The notes beneath the pieces were generated by a model. It had not been told where the DNA came from, did no database searches, and worked only from the letters and a program-made list of their open reading frames with translations. The translations under genes and the position numbers were made by a program. Below are positions 3,642 to 64,000 of a DNA stretch of 64,000 bases, in pieces. Origin of the DNA: Thermodesulfobacteriota bacterium (GTDB lineage Bacteria > Desulfobacterota > GWC2-55-46). The DNA is taken from positions 1,190,744 through 1,254,743 of the forward strand of contig CP129479.1 of the NCBI GenBank assembly GCA_030583865.1, read 5' to 3'. Position 1 is the stretch's first letter. Each line of letters opens with the position of its first letter.

Positions 3642-5195
3642 ATGGCTTACGAACTCAAACAGGAGCTCAAGCTTACACAGAACCTCGTGATGACCCCGCA
3701 GCTGCAGCTTGCGATCAAGCTACTGCAGCTATCGAGGCTCGAGCTCGTCGAGATGGTGCGGGAGGAAGTCGAGACGAACCCGGTCCTCGAGGACCTTTCG
3801 GGCCCCGAGGCGGAGGCCGAGGGGCAGGACACCTCCGACCCGGAAGCGGAGGCCGGGGGGCAGGACACCTCCGACCCGGAAACGGAGGCCGGGGGGCAGG
3901 ACACCTCCGACCCGGAAGCGGAGGCCGGGGGGCAGGAAGCGCCCACTGAGAAGCCCGAAGGCCGCGAGACGGACTGGGATGCCTACATAGATGCGCTGAG
4001 CCAGTACCAGTCCGGCGGGATTGATTTCAGCGAGCGGGACGAGGAGGACGACTACGTGTCGAACCTCTCGGACCGGGGCGAGAGCCTCTCTGAGCACCTC
4101 CTCTGGCAGCTCAGGATGCAGGGGCTTCCGGATGCGGAATTCGCTACGGGCGAGTTCATCATCGGCAATATCGACGAGGACGGCTACCTGAGGGTCATAG
4201 AGCGCGGCCAGATGGGGGACGGCGAGTACGAGGCCGCTACCCTGGCCGAGGTCGCCGCGGCGACCGGCGCGTCCCCGGAGGACGTGCTCCGCGTCCTCGA
4301 AATGATTCAGCAGTTCGACCCCCTCGGGGCAGGCTCGCGCACCCTGAGGGAGTGCCTCCTTGTCCAGGCCAGGAGCCTTCCGGTCCGCGACACCGTCATG
4401 GAGGAGGTCATATCGTCCCACCTCGACAAGCTCGCCGGCAAGAACTTCAAGGCCATAGCCAGGGCACTGGGGGTGGAGGTCGAGGAGGTGCTCGAGGCCG
4501 CGAGGAACATAAGCAGGGGCCTCAACCCCATGCCGGGCGCGGGCTTCGGCAGGGACGAATCCAGGGCGGTGCTCCCTGACATATACATACACAAGGTAGG
4601 TGAGGATTACGTCATATCGCTCAACGAAGACGGGATGCCGAAGCTCAAAATAAGTAAGAACTACATGAAGCTACTTAAGGCGGACGGCGCGTCGGCCGAG
4701 CAGGCCAGGGGGTATATACAGGACAAGCTCAGGAGCGCGCAGTGGCTCATAAAGAGCATCCACCAGAGGCAGCGCACCATCTACAAGGTGGTCGAGTGCA
4801 TAGTGAAGTTCCAGAGGGAGTTCCTGGACAAGGGCTTGAAGCACCTTAAGCCGCTGGTCTTGAAGGACGTGGCAGTGGAGATAGGGATGCACGAGTCCAC
4901 GGTGAGCAGGGTCACCTCGAACAAGTACGTCCAGACACCCAGGGGCATATTCGAGCTCAAGTACTTCTTCTCTAACGGCATAGCCGGCGACGGCGGCGAG
5001 GCGGTCGCCGTCGAGTACATAAAGGAGAAGGTCAGGAAGATCATAGAGTCAGAGGACCCTAAGTCGCCCTTGAGCGACAAGCAGATAGTCGAGGCGTTGA
5101 AGGAGTCCGGCATAGTGGTCGCAAGGAGGACCGCCACCAAGTACAGGGAGGCGCTGGGTTTCCAGTCCTCGAACAGGAGAAAGGTACATTTCTGA
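3642..5195 (+). CDS. rpoN: RNA polymerase sigma-54 factor RpoN
   Basis: 517 residues. Region I is Gln/Leu-rich at 1-50 (LTQNLVMTPQLQLAIKLLQL), as needed for activator-dependent opening. It is followed by an acidic region II, then the core-binding domain (about 135-330) and the DNA-binding C-terminus. The RpoN box that reads the -24 element is ARRTATKYRE at about 494-503 (canonical ARRTVAKYRE). Region II carries four 12-residue tandem repeats (see separate entry). ATG 3642 is the only start that keeps region I intact. Genes downstream (hpf, ptsN, hprK, rapZ) are the classical rpoN neighbours. A candidate target promoter lies at 39074-39090. Confidence 0.96.
   Translation: MAYELKQELKLTQNLVMTPQLQLAIKLLQLSRLELVEMVREEVETNPVLEDLSGPEAEAEGQDTSDPEAEAGGQDTSDPETEAGGQDTSDPEAEAGGQEAPTEKPEGRETDWDAYIDALSQYQSGGIDFSERDEEDDYVSNLSDRGESLSEHLLWQLRMQGLPDAEFATGEFIIGNIDEDGYLRVIERGQMGDGEYEAATLAEVAAATGASPEDVLRVLEMIQQFDPLGAGSRTLRECLLVQARSLPVRDTVMEEVISSHLDKLAGKNFKAIARALGVEVEEVLEAARNISRGLNPMPGAGFGRDESRAVLPDIYIHKVGEDYVISLNEDGMPKLKISKNYMKLLKADGASAEQARGYIQDKLRSAQWLIKSIHQRQRTIYKVVECIVKFQREFLDKGLKHLKPLVLKDVAVEIGMHESTVSRVTSNKYVQTPRGIFELKYFFSNGIAGDGGEAVAVEYIKEKVRKIIESEDPKSPLSDKQIVEALKESGIVVARRTATKYREALGFQSSNRRKVHF
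3804..3947 (+). repeat. In-frame 36-bp tandem repeat in rpoN acidic region
   Basis: Four head-to-tail 36-bp units encode PEAEAEGQDTSD, PEAEAGGQDTSD, PETEAGGQDTSD and PEAEAGGQEAPT (residues 55-102). Units 2 and 3 are nearly identical in DNA. The stretch lies in sigma-54 region II, an acidic linker of variable length. It probably arises by slippage and tolerates copy-number change without frameshift. Confidence 0.9.
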
Positions 5196-38546: not shown

Positions 38547-38589
38547 AAAAGAAAAAGGCCGCTGCCATTCGCAGCGGCCTTTTTCTTTT
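38547..38589. terminator. Bidirectional terminator between proS and PEP-CTERM gene
   Basis: AAAAGAAAAAGGCCGCTG / CAGCGGCCTTTTTCTTTT with a short loop. Perfect long stem with A- and T-tracts on either side. Serves proS (+) and the convergent PEP-CTERM gene (-). Confidence 0.96.
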
Positions 38590-38605: not shown

Positions 38606-39034
38606 TTACTTCGCGGACTGCCTCTTCCTTATGACTATCGCGCCCATTGCGGCTGCGAGGAGGGCCATGGTGCCGGGCTCGGGCACGGCATGGTTGTTGC
38701 CATTGTTATTCTTATCCTTTTTGTATTTCTTGCCGTGGTGCTTGCCGCCGTCGTAGTTGCCGCCGTTGCTGCTCACGGCGTTCAGGGGGCCGTTGTTCTT
38801 GCCGTTCCTGACGGGCTTGAAGTGGTTCTTGCCGCTGTTCACCTTGATGATGTTCTTGATCTTTACGATGGTCGTGTTGGTGGCGCTTGCGGCTGCGACG
38901 TTGGTGTTGGTGTTGCCGCCGTTTCCGAAAGGGGGGCCGCCGTTACCGTTATTCGGTACGCTTGCGGAGCTTACGGCAGGGACAAGGGCGAGGCATCCGA
39001 CGAGTACGGCTGCGGAAAGCAGGCTTCTTTTCAT
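38606..39034 (-). CDS. Small PEP-CTERM surface/exported protein, Asn/Gly-rich
   Basis: 142 residues. Signal peptide (MKRSLLSAAVLVGCLALVPAVSSA), an Asn/Gly/Lys-rich low-complexity middle (about 26-115), and a C-terminal PEP-CTERM sorting signal: VPEPGTMALL at about 117-126, a hydrophobic helix, then the basic RKRQSAK. Exosortase/EpsH enzymes cut such signals, and the proteins go to exopolysaccharide-rich surfaces. No exosortase is in this window. AGGAGG precedes ATG 39034, and a textbook sigma-54 promoter lies about 40 bases upstream, so RpoN should control it. Confidence 0.88.
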   Translation of the reverse strand: MKRSLLSAAVLVGCLALVPAVSSASVPNNGNGGPPFGNGGNTNTNVAAASATNTTIVKIKNIIKVNSGKNHFKPVRNGKNNGPLNAVSSNGGNYDGGKHHGKKYKKDKNNNGNNHAVPEPGTMALLAAAMGAIVIRKRQSAK

Positions 39035-39073
39035 TGCAGTTCCTCCTGTGATTTTTTTGATTCCCTTTTACTT

Positions 39074-39090
39074 AGCAAGAGCCGTGCCAG
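39074..39090 (-). promoter_or_regulatory. Sigma-54 (RpoN) promoter of the PEP-CTERM gene
   Basis: On the minus strand CTGGCACGGCTCTTGCTA: TGGCACG (-24), four bases, TTGCT (-12), matching the consensus YTGGCACGrNNNTTGCW at nearly every position. Just upstream an inverted repeat ATTGCC-N9-GGCAAT could bind a regulator. Located 40 bases before the start codon. Confidence 0.88.
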
Positions 39091-39268
39091 CCGGTATTGC
39101 CAGTATTTCGGGCAATTTTCGGATGCGCCGCGTCCTTCGGAGTAAAATGATTTTACAGCCCGGGCCGGCCTTTTCGCGTAAGCGCATGTTTTTTCTGGCT
39201 AGCGGGCCTGCAGTTTTTTTTACGCCGCTGAAGGCCTGGAGTCATGCGCATTTTTTTTGCACGTTCAT

Positions 39269-39296
39269 TTGACAACCGGGTTTTTTGAGCTATTCT
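39269..39296 (+). promoter_or_regulatory. Sigma-70 promoter of DUF3015 gene 1
   Basis: Perfect TTGACA at 39269-39274, 16-base spacer, TATTCT at 39291-39296. The leader is about 25 bases with CTGGAGG before ATG 39327. Upstream (39097-39268) I see several T-tracts and nothing coding. Confidence 0.75.
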
Positions 39297-39326: not shown

Positions 39327-39797
39327 ATGAAAAGGCTTACCATATCGGGATGCGCCCTTGCCTTATTTATGGGGTTCGCGGCGCTTCCAGCCGGGGCGCA
39401 GACCTTTGACCAGAACGTGGGCTGCGGCCTCGGGAGCGTGCTGATGAAGGAGAGGGACGCCACGCTCTTTCAGGTGCTCGCAATAACGACGAACGGGATA
39501 CTCTTCAACCAGACCATCGGCATCACCTTCGGCGTCTTCGGGTGCCAGCAGCCGGCCGTATTCGTAGAAAACGAGAAGCTCAAGACCTTCGTCGCCGCCA
39601 ACATGGACTCTCTCGCCCAGGACATGGCCGCCGGGAACGGGGAGTCCCTCGCGACGGTCGCCGAGCTCATGGGCGTGCCCGCGGAGAAGAGGTCGGAGTT
39701 CTATGCCTCGCTCCAGTCGAACTTCAGGGAGATATACACGTCAGGGGGCGTGCAGTCCGCTGACGTGATAGAAAACATCTCGGAGACCTCGCTTTAG
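39327..39797 (+). CDS. DUF3015-family exported protein 1
   Basis: 156 residues. Signal peptide (MKRLTISGCALALFMGFAALPAGA), then the DUF3015 pattern: NVGCGLGSVLMKE, FQVLAITTNGILFNQTIGIT, FGCQQPAVFVENEKLKTFV, ANMDSLAQDMAAGNGESL. Two conserved Cys (in VGCGLG and FGCQQP) could form a disulfide. The function is unknown. The frame is open from 39285, but ATG 39327 has CTGGAGG upstream. It is flanked by its own promoter and terminator. Confidence 0.85.
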   Translation: MKRLTISGCALALFMGFAALPAGAQTFDQNVGCGLGSVLMKERDATLFQVLAITTNGILFNQTIGITFGVFGCQQPAVFVENEKLKTFVAANMDSLAQDMAAGNGESLATVAELMGVPAEKRSEFYASLQSNFREIYTSGGVQSADVIENISETSL

Positions 39798-39829
39798 CTG
39801 GACTCCGGCCCAAACCGTGTCGTCCCGGC

Positions 39830-39866
39830 AGGCCATGCGGCCCTTCTGCGGCCGCATGGCCTTTCA
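39830..39866 (+). terminator. Intrinsic terminator of DUF3015 gene 1
   Basis: AGGCCATGCGGCC / GGCCGCATGGCCT, a 13-bp perfect stem with a 7-base loop, followed by TTCAAATTTG. Confidence 0.85.
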
Positions 39867-39920
39867 AATTTGTCAGTGACTTTGGTGTTTAATCTCTCCG
39901 CGTCCATTTAAATATTTCGT

Positions 39921-39947
39921 TTGACATCCAGGGGCATTAGTTATAAA
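39921..39947 (+). promoter_or_regulatory. Promoter of DUF3015 gene 2
   Basis: TTGACA at 39921-39926 and TATAAA at 39942-39947. The spacer is 15 bases, slightly short. Confidence 0.6.
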
Positions 39948-39974
39948 AGAAGAAAAACTCTCAGGAGGCCCTGG

Positions 39975-40460
39975 ATGAAAAGACTCGCTGGTTTTGGTTC
40001 CGCGCTTCTCCTTGCGGGGGCGTTCATGCTCCCGTCAAGCGCCGCTGCCCAGTCGTACGATACCAATGTGGGGTGCGGCCTCGGCAACATGCTCTTCAAG
40101 GAAATCGGCCAGGACAAGACGCTCTTCCAGATACTCGCTGTCACCACGAACGGTTTTTTCTTCAACCAGACCTTCGGGATCACCTCCGGAACCCTCGGGT
40201 GCGCGCAGCCTTCGATGATAGTCGAGAACGAGAAGGTCCTGAGGTTCGTCGCCGACAACATGGACACCCTCGCGCAGGACATCGCCGTGGGGAACGGCGA
40301 GGCGCTCTCAACCCTTGCCGAGCTCATGGAAATACCGGCCGAGCAGAGGCCCGTGTTCTTCTCGAAGCTCCAGGAGAACTTCAACGGCATCTACAGCTCC
40401 TCCGCTGTGGAGTCGGCTGACGTGATCGAGGGCATCTACAAGATTGCTTCCAACTCGTAG
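39975..40460 (+). CDS. DUF3015-family exported protein 2
   Basis: 161 residues, a paralogue of the preceding gene with the same layout: signal peptide (MKRLAGFGSALLLAGAFMLPSSAAA), NVGCGLGNMLFKE, FQILAVTTNGFFFNQTFGIT, LGCAQPSMIVENEKVLRFV, DNMDTLAQDIAVGNGEAL. Local tandem duplication followed by divergence is the simplest history. AGGAGG lies six bases before ATG 39975. A strong terminator follows, yet the Lnb-like gene starts inside it. Function unknown; probably periplasmic or outer-surface. Confidence 0.85.
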   Translation: MKRLAGFGSALLLAGAFMLPSSAAAQSYDTNVGCGLGNMLFKEIGQDKTLFQILAVTTNGFFFNQTFGITSGTLGCAQPSMIVENEKVLRFVADNMDTLAQDIAVGNGEALSTLAELMEIPAEQRPVFFSKLQENFNGIYSSSAVESADVIEGIYKIASNS

Positions 40461-59435: not shown

Positions 59436-60317
59436 TTGGAAAGGAACAAGGCCCCTGAAAGAACCGGGGCGCCCTTCTTAAAAAAGCTCATTCTGGCTTC
59501 GGTCCTTGCCGTCCTCGGCATATTCATATTCGCCTTGACGCTCTTCCATCTCGTGCCTTCCCATGTCTACGAGAGGCTTATCTCCGCCACACTCAGGGAA
59601 AAGACGGGGCTCGCGCTCGAGAGCGCGTCCTCGTCGACCGTCTTCCCGTTCGGGTTCGAGCTGAAGGACGCAAGGCTCAGCGACTCCAACGGCAGGGGCA
59701 TCGCGCGCCTTGACTCCGTAAGGGCGGACCTGATGCTCAGGGGTATCCTGTCGGGATTGAGGATGGACTTCAAGGGTGCCGCCGGGGAGGGCACTGTCGA
59801 GGGGTCGTTCCGTTACTGGCTTTTCGGGTCGTCTATTGACATGGAATCGAGGGATGTCGATTTCAGATACATCGAGGCGCTCGGCGCTGCCGGCGTCAAG
59901 GTCGAAGGCTCGTTCGACGGCAGGTTCTCCGTGAAGTCAGCCGGGGGCTGCCCTAAAGGCTTTGCCAGGATGGAGGGTTCGGACCTCAGGAACGCGGAGT
60001 TCCGTTTAAGGGGGATCCCGCTCTCGTTCGGCGATATCGAGGAGGCGGGCCTTTCCGCGGACTTGAGAAACTGCTCCGTCTTTTTAAACGGGTTATGGGT
60101 GGAGGGGGACAAGGCCTCCCTGAGGCTCCAGGGGAGCATAAAGCCGCTTACGCCGTTGGCGTCGAGCCCCGTCGACCTTACTCTCGAAATAGTGCCCCAT
60201 GCCGAGCTCCTTCAAAACAACTATCTCCTCGCCTTTATCGAGGCCTACCGCAAATCGGCGAACTTCTATTCCATACCCGTAAGGGGCACTCTCGGAAGCC
60301 TACTGCCTGGCCTCTGA
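59436..60317 (+). CDS. gspN: Type II secretion system protein GspN-like (AsmA-related)
   Basis: 293 residues from TTG 59436 (AAGGAAGG upstream). Membrane helix at about 17-37, then a periplasmic beta-rich domain: LVPSHVYERLISATLREKTGL, FPFGFELKDARLSD, GEGTVEGSFRYWLFG. This is the delta-proteobacterial GspN pattern. Other gsp genes are not in the window. Its 3' end overlaps the convergent TPR gene by 18 bases. Confidence 0.75.
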   Translation: MERNKAPERTGAPFLKKLILASVLAVLGIFIFALTLFHLVPSHVYERLISATLREKTGLALESASSSTVFPFGFELKDARLSDSNGRGIARLDSVRADLMLRGILSGLRMDFKGAAGEGTVEGSFRYWLFGSSIDMESRDVDFRYIEALGAAGVKVEGSFDGRFSVKSAGGCPKGFARMEGSDLRNAEFRLRGIPLSFGDIEEAGLSADLRNCSVFLNGLWVEGDKASLRLQGSIKPLTPLASSPVDLTLEIVPHAELLQNNYLLAFIEAYRKSANFYSIPVRGTLGSLLPGL

Positions 60318-62630
60318 CAGCCGCTCTCTTTTTTCCAGCTCAAGGAGCGCGCTGCGGGCTTCCTCCTGGCCCGGGAAATCCTTACCCGCCGCGAGCGCTG
60401 CCTTGAGCTCCTCTTTCGCGAGCTTGAGGTTCTCCCTCTCGATGTACGCGACCGCCAGGTGGAATCTTACAAGAGGGTTCCCGGGGAGCTTGGCCGCGCT
60501 TTCCTTAAGGAGCGACAGCGCCCTCATATGCGCTCCCTTTTTTAAATAGATCCAGCCCAGGGTGTCGGAAATCATCGGGTCGTCCGGCATTATCTCCTTT
60601 GCCATTTCCGCCAGCGGGAGCGCTTCGTCGAGATAGCCGTGCTCGGCGTATATCCAGGCCAGGTTGTTCGCTGCCGGGGCGAACCTCGGGTTTATCTCGA
60701 GGGCCCGGGCGTAATGCTCCGCGGCCTCCTGGTAGCTCTCCTGCGATTCGTAAGCGAGCGCGAGGAGCATGTGCGCCGGAAGCGAATCCGGGCTGTTCTC
60801 GACGGCCTTTTTGAAGTTGTCAATCGATTCGGCAAAGGAGCCTTTCCGCGAATACAGGCTGCCGAGCTCGATGTAAGGCTCTACGTAGTCGCTTTTCAGC
60901 TCGATCGCCTTCCTGAACGACTCTTCGGCCTTTTCGAGGTCGTTGACCGCGAGGTAAACCTTCCCCATGAGGTGATGGAGCCAGAATCTGCCCGGGTCAA
61001 GGGCTATCTCCTTTTTAATCCGAGCTACTGCAGGGCCGTGCTCTTTTCTCTCGATGAGTATGTTCGCGACCATCGTTATGGGGCGGGGGTCGCTCCTGTC
61101 GAGCGCGAACGCCTTCTCGAACAAGGCCAGGCTGCCTGGCACGTCTTTCTCCATCAGGCGCAGGGTGCCGAGACCGTAATGGCCCCTGGGGTCGCCGGGT
61201 TCGGCCTCGACTGCCGCCGCGAACATCTCTGCGGCCTTCTTGAGCTTCTTCTCCTTGATGTACAGGCTCCCGGAAGAGAGAAGCGCGGCAGCGTTTTGAG
61301 GGTCTTTCCGGAGGACCGCCTTGAGCTCGCCGAGCGCGAGCCATGTATCGCCTGTCTCCGCGTATACTGACGCGAGCGCAAGCCTCGCGTCGACTGATTC
61401 CGGGGCGAGCCGCACGGCTTCCTTAAGCTCCGTCTTGGCCTGCTCATGCCTCCCCCTGGCGCTGTGCACAAGGCCGATGGCGTAATGTGCCATCGCATGG
61501 CCGGGCTCCATCCGCACAGCGGTATTAAGGTCCGTAAGCGCCTCGGTGGTCTTTCCCTCGGTGGCCCTTAACCTGCCCCTCAGGTAGAGCCCGAAGTAGC
61601 CGTCAGGCTCCCCGGCCAGTATCTCTTCCACAAGCGGTGCCGCCTCTTTCGCATCCCCGCTGCTTATAAGGAATTCCGCGTATTTCTTCCTCAGGACGAG
61701 CCCTTCTCGTATTTTCGAAATGCCCTCGGCGTAGACAGCCCTGGCATCACCGGGCTTGCGCGACGCGAGATAATAATCGGCGAGCTTGATATAAGCGTCC
61801 GGCACTCCGGGCCATGCCCCAGTCATCCTCTTGTATGCTTCCTCTGCCTCCTTATCCCTGTCCATGCGGGAATAGAGGCCCCCAAGGGCGTCGAGCACGG
61901 CCAGATTGTCGCCTGTTTCCCTGGCGGCGCTCAACAGCTCTTTTTCGGCTTCCGTGAACCTTTTGAGGCCGATAAACATCCTGGCGAGCGCGATCCGGGG
62001 TGCCGGGTCGCCGCCTCCGGCGCCTATTGCCTTCCTGAAGCTTTCTTCAGCCGCCGGGTAGTCTTTCCTCTCAATGTGGATCTCCGCAGCCGCCATGAAA
62101 AGGCCGGCGTCAGGAGGGCCGAGGGAGACTGCATCGTCGATTAAGGAGAGCGCCTTGCCGAATTCTTTTTTCCCGGCGCTCGCCAAGGCCATCAGGAGGA
62201 GCGCTTCCCTGCTTTTTTGGCCGTCGTTATAAACGCTTTCGGCCAGCCTTAGCGCCTCGTCATGGTCACCCGAGGCGCGGTAGAGCTCGGAAAGCCCAAG
62301 GCGCGCGCCAGCGTGCGCTGGGGACAGCTCTATTGCCCTTTTGAACTGCCGCATCGCTGACAGCGGGCTTGACGGGCCGTCTATCCCGAGATAGGAAAGG
62401 CCGAGGCTGTAGTTGGCTTCGGCGCTTTCGGGCCTGAGCTGGACCGCTTTCCTGAACTCCCTGGACGCCTCCAGCAGTTCTCCGGATTCGAGCAGGATGC
62501 GGCCCCTTTCCATGTGGCCGTTAAAGGCCTTCTCCGGGCCGCGGCCGCACCCTGCTGCGGCGATGATAAAAAAGAGTACGATTGCGACCGAGACTGACGC
62601 CGTTTTTCCATTGCTTTTGATGGTTTTCAT
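60300..62630 (-). CDS. Large TPR-repeat lipoprotein
   Basis: 776 residues. Lipoprotein signal with lipobox AAGC (VAIVLFFIIAAAGCGRG), then about 20 TPR units, for example FRKAVQLRPESAEANYSLGL, KTELKEAVRLAPESVDARLA, FRKAIELKSDYVEPYIELGS and DTLGWIYLKKGAHMRALSLL. Giant TPR lipoproteins of this shape occur in exopolysaccharide/PEP-CTERM (PrsT-like) loci, but the family cannot be fixed without a model search. Separated by one base from the TPR gene upstream on the same strand, so the two form an operon. Confidence 0.82.
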   Translation of the reverse strand: MKTIKSNGKTASVSVAIVLFFIIAAAGCGRGPEKAFNGHMERGRILLESGELLEASREFRKAVQLRPESAEANYSLGLSYLGIDGPSSPLSAMRQFKRAIELSPAHAGARLGLSELYRASGDHDEALRLAESVYNDGQKSREALLLMALASAGKKEFGKALSLIDDAVSLGPPDAGLFMAAAEIHIERKDYPAAEESFRKAIGAGGGDPAPRIALARMFIGLKRFTEAEKELLSAARETGDNLAVLDALGGLYSRMDRDKEAEEAYKRMTGAWPGVPDAYIKLADYYLASRKPGDARAVYAEGISKIREGLVLRKKYAEFLISSGDAKEAAPLVEEILAGEPDGYFGLYLRGRLRATEGKTTEALTDLNTAVRMEPGHAMAHYAIGLVHSARGRHEQAKTELKEAVRLAPESVDARLALASVYAETGDTWLALGELKAVLRKDPQNAAALLSSGSLYIKEKKLKKAAEMFAAAVEAEPGDPRGHYGLGTLRLMEKDVPGSLALFEKAFALDRSDPRPITMVANILIERKEHGPAVARIKKEIALDPGRFWLHHLMGKVYLAVNDLEKAEESFRKAIELKSDYVEPYIELGSLYSRKGSFAESIDNFKKAVENSPDSLPAHMLLALAYESQESYQEAAEHYARALEINPRFAPAANNLAWIYAEHGYLDEALPLAEMAKEIMPDDPMISDTLGWIYLKKGAHMRALSLLKESAAKLPGNPLVRFHLAVAYIERENLKLAKEELKAALAAGKDFPGQEEARSALLELEKRERLSEARQ

Positions 62631-62631
62631 G

Positions 62632-64000
62632 TCAGCTTAGCCCGCTTATCCTTTTGAGTGTTTGTTTGGCCTCGTCCGAGCCGGGGAACTCGTCATTCAG
62701 GTCCAGCGCCTTCTCGATGGCCGCCCCGGCCCTCTCGGGGTCTCCAAGCTTTATGTAAACGAGGCCGAGCCTGTACAGGGCTACCGGGTCGGCAGCCCCG
62801 TTCCGCTCAAGCCTCGAATAAAGGGCGAGCGCGTCGCCGTGCCTGCCCATCCTGTAATATATCCACCCGAGCGTGTCGGCCATGGCCGCGTCCTCGGGGT
62901 CGAGAGAGCTTCCTTTCCTGGCGTATTTGAGCGCGCCCTTGAGGTCGCCGCGTTGCTCCGCAAGGAGCGACGCGAGTTTTTGGTACGCCTCCACGGACCT
63001 GGCCGACGATATTATCTTCTTGTATTCCCGCGCCGCGTCTTCGACCTTGCCGGCTTTCGCATACGAGTCGGCGAGCCTGGTCATTATCCGGACCGACTCG
63101 GGAGCCCTGCGTGCGGCTTCCGAATAGAAGCCTGCCGCCCGCTCGAATTCGTTTCTCGACTCGAGGATCTCTCCGAGCCCGGCGTAGGCAGAGACCATCC
63201 CCGGGTGGTCTTCTATTATTCCCCTGTACACTTTTTCGGCCTCAGCCGGATCTCCCAGCCTCTCTATGGCGCTGGCGCGGAGTACCCTCAGGAGCGGGTT
63301 CCTTTCCGTTTTCGGTACGGAGGCAAGTGTTTCCCGGTAGAGCCCGGCCCTGTTATAGAGCAGGGCCAGGCTCACCCTGGCCGCTTCCGCCCCGCCCGGG
63401 CCGAAGAGGAGGTCGGATCCGCCTTCGAGCGCCTGGAGCTCGGGGAAAAGGTCGGCGGCCTTGCCGAGCTCCTCCCTTCCTTCTTCCAGCTCGCCGAGAG
63501 AAAGGAGCACGCCGCCGAGGGCTATCCTTGCGACAGGGTCGAGCGGGTCTTCTTCGACCGCCTTAAGCGCCATGTCCTTTGCCCGTGAGCGCTCCTCCTG
63601 TAGCTGCAGAGTCACAGCGGCGTTCAGAAAACCCTCCCTGAGCCCCGGCGAGGTGGCTATAAGCGACTGAAAGCTCCTCAGCGCCTCGTTATAGTCCTCC
63701 TCTATAAGGCCTATCACCCCGAGGAAATAGGAGGTGAGGGAAAACTCGGGGTTCGAGCGGCTGAGCGCCTGGAAGCTTGCCCTGGCCTCCTTTGCCTGGC
63801 TGTTAAGGAGGTAGGCGGTTCCGAGTACCAGGTGCGCCCCGGGAGAATCCGGCTCGGATTTCAGGACCTCGCCCGCGTACTCTATCGCCCTGCCAAATTC
63901 GGCCTCGGCCAGGTGGATCCGGCTCAGGTTAAGGTAGTCAGGCTCCGTCCCGATGAGCCGTTCATAGCACTCCCTCGCGTTCCTGAGGAGTCCCTGGGAA
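62632..64000 (-). CDS. Large TPR-repeat protein, 3' part (continues past the window)
   Basis: The frame is open from the window edge (64000) to the TGA at 62634-62632, at least 455 codons. An internal GTG at 63717 is not the true start, because upstream codons keep reading TPR sequence (LNSQAKEARASFQALSRSNPEFS). About 12 TPR units, ending DTLGWIYYRMGRHGDALALYSRLE and AAIEKALDLNDEFPGSDEAK. Its last repeats resemble the end of the neighbouring 776-residue protein, so the pair may be duplicates. Confidence 0.82.
   Translation of the reverse strand, partial: SQGLLRNARECYERLIGTEPDYLNLSRIHLAEAEFGRAIEYAGEVLKSEPDSPGAHLVLGTAYLLNSQAKEARASFQALSRSNPEFSLTSYFLGVIGLIEEDYNEALRSFQSLIATSPGLREGFLNAAVTLQLQEERSRAKDMALKAVEEDPLDPVARIALGGVLLSLGELEEGREELGKAADLFPELQALEGGSDLLFGPGGAEAARVSLALLYNRAGLYRETLASVPKTERNPLLRVLRASAIERLGDPAEAEKVYRGIIEDHPGMVSAYAGLGEILESRNEFERAAGFYSEAARRAPESVRIMTRLADSYAKAGKVEDAAREYKKIISSARSVEAYQKLASLLAEQRGDLKGALKYARKGSSLDPEDAAMADTLGWIYYRMGRHGDALALYSRLERNGAADPVALYRLGLVYIKLGDPERAGAAIEKALDLNDEFPGSDEAKQTLKRISGLS

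Follow-up and report, generated by a model that had tools for sequence, protein, structure and literature searches.

A predicted sigma-54 promoter with a candidate PrsR-type activator box ahead of a small PEP-CTERM gene in a Thermodesulfobacteriota genome

Results

A small PEP-CTERM gene and its upstream region

The window, by which we mean the whole 64,000-nt stretch analysed here, carries a short PEP-CTERM gene together with a promoter, a candidate activator site and a possible terminator, and further along it the genes for the sigma factor RpoN and for the PEP-CTERM system protein PrsT. Within its single-contig genome of 2.75 Mb, the window covers bases 1190744-1254743. The features, in window positions, are as follows.

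3642..5195, plus strand: rpoN (TIGR02395, 423.5 bits, cut-off 277.35)
38558..38578, minus strand: terminator-like hairpin, bidirectional, between convergent genes and common to the PEP-CTERM gene and proS
38606..39034, minus strand: PEP-CTERM gene encoding an Asn/Gly-rich secreted protein of 142 aa with the C-terminal PEP-CTERM signal VPEPGTMALLAAAMGAIVIRKRQSAK
39035..39053, minus strand: ribosome-binding region of the PEP-CTERM gene, ACAGGAGGAACTGCA
39073..39090, minus strand: -24/-12 sigma-54 promoter, CTGGCACG-GCTC-TTGCTA, a perfect consensus match that is invariant in orthologues
39141..39157, minus strand: candidate palindromic upstream activator site of 17 nt, TGTAAAATCATTTTACT, with arms invariant in orthologues
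60300..62630, minus strand: prsT, PEP-CTERM system TPR protein (TIGR02917, 339.7 bits, cut-off 312.2)
62632..63717, minus strand: TPR protein adjoining prsT (TIGR02917, 90.2 bits, below cut-off)

The 142-aa protein scores above cut-off with two PEP-CTERM models, TIGR02595 (27.1 bits, cut-off 16) and PF07589 (25.2 bits, cut-off 20.7), and has orthologues of 71-81% identity in three genomes of the same genus. Against the flocculation protein PepA model (NF033554) it reaches 29.6 bits, below that model's cut-off of 80. As judged from its sequence, the protein is probably surface-bound. Its gene looks monocistronic, and it is followed by the hairpin at 38558-38578, a type of match of which 2.6 would be expected by chance, on average, in the stretch scanned. 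Divergent from the PEP-CTERM gene are two DUF3015 genes in tandem (39327-40460), the first of which has its own sigma-70-type promoter at 39269-39296, with hexamers that are conserved in orthologues.

A conserved -24/-12 element

The initial annotation had proposed a near-perfect sigma-54 promoter on the minus strand some 40 bases ahead of an Asn/Gly-rich PEP-CTERM gene, and this description holds in each of its parts. In a pattern scan, TGGCACGGCTCTTGCT at 39074-39089 on the minus strand shows no mismatch to TGGCACGN4TTGCW; the 64-kb window has no other perfect match, and the 2.75-Mb genome has six in all. The -12 GC lies about 41 nt (38-41) from the ATG at 39034, with an AGGAGG between the two, and the transcript is predicted to start near 39064. 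In an alignment of four orthologous promoters (that of the window gene and those of its three genus relatives) all 20 of 20 columns of the promoter block GCTGGCACGGCTCTTGCTAA are identical while the flanks vary; the -24(GG)/-12(GC) motif TGGCACGGCTCTTGCTA, which defines the promoter class, thus stands unchanged ahead of the start codon, and AGGAGGAA in the ribosome-binding region is invariant across the same number of genomes.

When one mismatch is allowed, the pattern has 22 matches in the genome, as against 14 for a reversed-pattern control. Other sites with no mismatch or one lie ahead of genes that, from a reading of their sequences, are flagellar, pilin-like or regulatory, a spread that is as expected of a sigma-54 regulon. 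One more perfect site, near a sub-cut-off PEP-CTERM match at 713223, is followed by an ORF for a response-regulator-like protein, and the match was dropped; another PEP-CTERM match, at 434437, was set aside as an open frame of 26 aa. The genuine PEP-CTERM set of this genome, taken without that frame and without sub-cut-off matches, numbers five genes. Three of the five have both a sigma-54 site and an activator box, so that the motif recurs at two of the four genes other than the window gene, in keeping with the initial annotation's expectation that it would be found at further PEP-CTERM genes. An upstream check of the remaining two, at 1701459 and 2279772, found no sigma-54 promoter; the protein encoded at 2279772 consists mostly of EEPTVGRAPIPVA repeats.

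Extension of the scan to the family also supports the initial annotation. Thirty genomes of the same family hold about 120 PEP-CTERM matches, from which 86 PEP-CTERM genes were recovered with at least 200 nt of upstream sequence. A GG/GC site within two mismatches occurs in 71 of these 86 upstream regions, compared with 1/86 in their reverse complements and 2/86 in coding starts, a difference that places the promoter beyond chance.

A palindromic box upstream of the promoter

The palindrome TGTAAAATCATTTTACT lies about 50 nt from the -24 element, its centre at about -85 relative to the predicted start. Both of its arms are kept in all four genomes of the orthologue alignment, and no other site in the window matches its pattern as well. 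Its sequence makes it a probable PrsR box of the motif 1 type described by Haft and colleagues (discussed below); the last six bases of the box are TTTACT at the window gene and TTTACA in the text of Haft et al. The combination of a window-type box with a sigma-54 site is also found upstream of PEP-CTERM genes of the family. Across the family, an activator box within one mismatch (counted as TGTCA-N6-TTTACA or TGTAAA-N5-TTTAC[AT]) accompanies 56 of the 69 sigma-54-type PEP-CTERM promoters, where shuffled sequence would yield 0.2. Helical phasing of box and promoter is suggestive only: over all promoters the distance between them has a best period of 11.0 nt (R 0.60, reached by 0 of 5000 jittered sets), and with one promoter per protein cluster p = 0.08.

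Two box-bearing regions elsewhere in the genome may extend the regulon. In the first (genome 2463196-2463380), a sigma-54-type site, TGGTATGGTAATTGC, is combined with two activator boxes ahead of a glycosyltransferase-like gene (2463366), which suggests from sequence that polysaccharide genes belong to the PrsR regulon. In the second (genome 274721-274872), a sigma-54-type site, TGGCCCGCGGCTTGC, and two perfect activator boxes stand before a 130-aa ORF (274857) that resembles the N-terminus of a relative's PEP-CTERM protein without the tail and is possibly a decayed gene. Separately, two perfect GTAAA-N5-TTTAC palindromes lie 108 nt apart in an intergenic region at about 1761061-1761183 of the genome; no clear -24/-12 element was seen there, and the minus-strand neighbour encodes CxxCH haem motifs.

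Two PEP-CTERM/exopolysaccharide sets in one genome

In this genome PrsR, PrsT and exosortase each score above cut-off twice. The first set, at 2.51-2.55 Mb, comprises an exosortase (2512298) identified as XrtW (NF038142, 514.2 bits, cut-off 425), prsK (393.0 bits, cut-off 300), prsR (2541051), prsT and two PEP-CTERM genes, whose boxes read TGTCAG[CG]TTGTTTTACA, that is, TGTCAG-N5-TTTACA. The second set starts with prsT at the window's right edge and runs on beyond it, through an NtrC-like regulator, a nucleotide-sugar dehydrogenase, prsR (1257951), a PrsK-like kinase (270.9 bits, below the family cut-off of 300), a CFI-box protein and an exosortase. The tie to a PrsK/PrsR-type system that the initial annotation had drawn is supported, and what that annotation overlooked is prsT within the window, with prsR, the prsK-like gene and the exosortase just past its end. 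The last of these is

1263481..1264482 (genome coordinates): second-set exosortase (1263541), general exosortase model 129.8 bits, cut-off 105.55

and it passes no named subtype model, the closest being XrtC (TIGR04151; 191.2 bits, cut-off 300). A tblastn search found that one locus of another genome (G027_C21) encodes a relative of it. The CFI-box protein adjoining this exosortase (genome 1261640-1263451) is a large secreted repeat protein with the CFI-box domain at its C-terminus.

The rpoN gene lies 34 kb from the PEP-CTERM promoter. Its presence in the same window had been read as a meaningful link; we regard the proximity as incidental, because sigma-54 acts in trans and other sigma-54-type promoters lie far from rpoN. 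Within rpoN, at 3803-3937, a 36-nt repeat runs through 3.8 copies (94% match) and encodes an acidic EAEAGGQDTSDP linker.

Discussion

The PEP-CTERM gene described here is preceded by a perfect, conserved -24/-12 element and a conserved palindromic box, in a genome that holds all of the partners known to act with such sites. We consider it very probable that the gene is driven by an enhancer-dependent sigma-54 promoter belonging to the PrsK-PrsR/PEP-CTERM regulon. On this model, RpoN-RNA polymerase would occupy the -24/-12 element at 39073-39090 as a closed complex, PrsK would phosphorylate a PrsR-type activator of the NtrC family, and the phosphorylated activator would bind TGTAAAATCATTTTACT at 39141-39157 and open the complex. 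The small Asn-rich protein would then be exported, its PEP-CTERM tail recognised by an exosortase, and the product delivered to the cell surface or to the exopolysaccharide matrix. Binding and activation by PrsR are inferred for this gene from its sites and partners, and PrsR binding and RpoN dependence have been shown in other species.

Which of the two sets serves the window gene is a matter of sequence comparison, and the cognate set is most likely the second: prsR 1257951 with its prsK-like neighbour, exosortase 1263541 and prsT. In PrsR trees the two copies split, and the 1257951 copy (G000) groups with those of six genomes (G001, G002, G004, G005, G019 and G027), each of them a carrier of window-type genes. 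That the window gene is instead served by the first set (prsR 2541051, XrtW 2512298), or by both PrsR copies, strikes us as unlikely, if well short of negligible. The two PrsR copies have closely similar recognition helices (SRPTLHQLVKKYN versus SRPTVHHIIKKYN), which makes cross-binding plausible and cross-talk between the copies possible, and the halves of the boxes overlap in sequence. Against this, the two PEP-CTERM genes of the first set use TGTCAG-N5-TTTACA, whereas the window gene has TGTAAAA-N3-TTTTACT, and small PEP-CTERM genes lie about 1-3 kb from the prsR of loci of the second type, with their exosortases, in two genomes (G007 and G021). Moreover, the TGTAAA box accompanies 10/10 family genes that have the window-type tail and 8/46 of the others, an association of box type with tail type (Fisher p = 1.2e-6) in which the classes were defined post hoc and shared ancestry is uncorrected.

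A broader idea, which we offer tentatively and rate somewhat below an even chance, is that the genome keeps two PEP-CTERM channels running in parallel and insulated from each other, with a separate exosortase, PrsR and promoter box for each. With its TGTAAAA-N3-TTTTACT box and its PEPGTMALL-AA tail, the window gene would belong to the channel with the unnamed exosortase subtype, and on the two-channel reading the type of sorting signal and the type of promoter box would therefore have diverged together. The idea carries a hint, open to testing, that where a genome has two exosortase systems it separates them both by promoter and by sorting signal, and it may be the sole part of our analysis that is new.

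A second alternative accepts the sigma-54 promoter and places a different NtrC-family activator on the nearby inverted repeat ATTGCC-N9-GGCAAT (39096-39101/39111-39116), which the initial annotation had put forward as the activator site. The repeat is present, and the genome has 18 near-full-length NtrC-like matches from which such an activator might come. Yet the pair is broken in all three orthologues, in which the promoter and the arms of TGTAAAA-N3-TTTTAC are intact, and we reject it as the activator site because it is not conserved. At about -42 it would also lie directly against the polymerase, and repeats of six bases occur often in this stretch: 292 nt contain nine inverted repeats of 6 nt or longer, this one included. 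We hold this alternative to be very improbable; as a candidate activator site TGTAAAATCATTTTACT is better on sequence grounds.

Least probable of all is that the -24/-12 match is coincidental and an ordinary promoter reads the gene, a view to which the frequency of one-mismatch matches in the genome and the PEP-CTERM genes here that lack a sigma-54 site lend something, and against which stand the 20 invariant nucleotides, the family-wide excess over controls, the co-occurring activator box and a sigma-70-type scan that found no minus-strand site at the PEP-CTERM promoter.

Taken with the sigma-54 promoter of the window gene, the survey of one family of uncultured deltaproteobacteria gives an independent quantitative confirmation that sigma-54 controls the majority of PEP-CTERM genes, as predicted from their sites. 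The arrangement was first described by Haft et al. (2006; PMC1569441), who found a 17-nt motif 1 ending in TTTACA, a spacer of 32-92 nt and a sigma-54 motif 2 upstream of 99/167 proteobacterial PEP-CTERM genes, and whose promoter is matched in its occurrence by PrsR, PrsK and PrsT. The window gene has the same order of 17-nt activator box, -24/-12 promoter and single-gene PEP-CTERM operon, with a spacer of about 50 nt and with 38-41 nt to the start codon against a published minimum of 23. PrsR, PrsK (above cut-off in its first-set copy), PrsT and exosortase are likewise all in the genome. It differs in that the box is a fuller palindrome with T for A as its last base, as judged against the text of Haft et al., and in that the system is present in two copies.

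Two experimental systems bear on the mechanism. In Desulfovibrio vulgaris, DAP-chip showed PrsR (DVUA0057) bound to all five of its predicted PEP-CTERM targets (PMC3333781); that regulon is experimental where ours is predicted, and its regulator is plasmid-borne. In Aquincola tertiaricarbonis, pepA, which has a role in flocculation, depends on RpoN1 for its high transcription, and the mapped start belongs to a -24/-12 promoter (PMC9850573). Like the window gene, Aquincola pepA is a PEP-CTERM gene with -24/-12 elements (TGGCAC/CTGCTT in Aquincola), but it encodes a different protein and belongs to a betaproteobacterium. Set beside these systems, the promoter of the window gene adds a well-supported new case to a regulatory system known since 2006.
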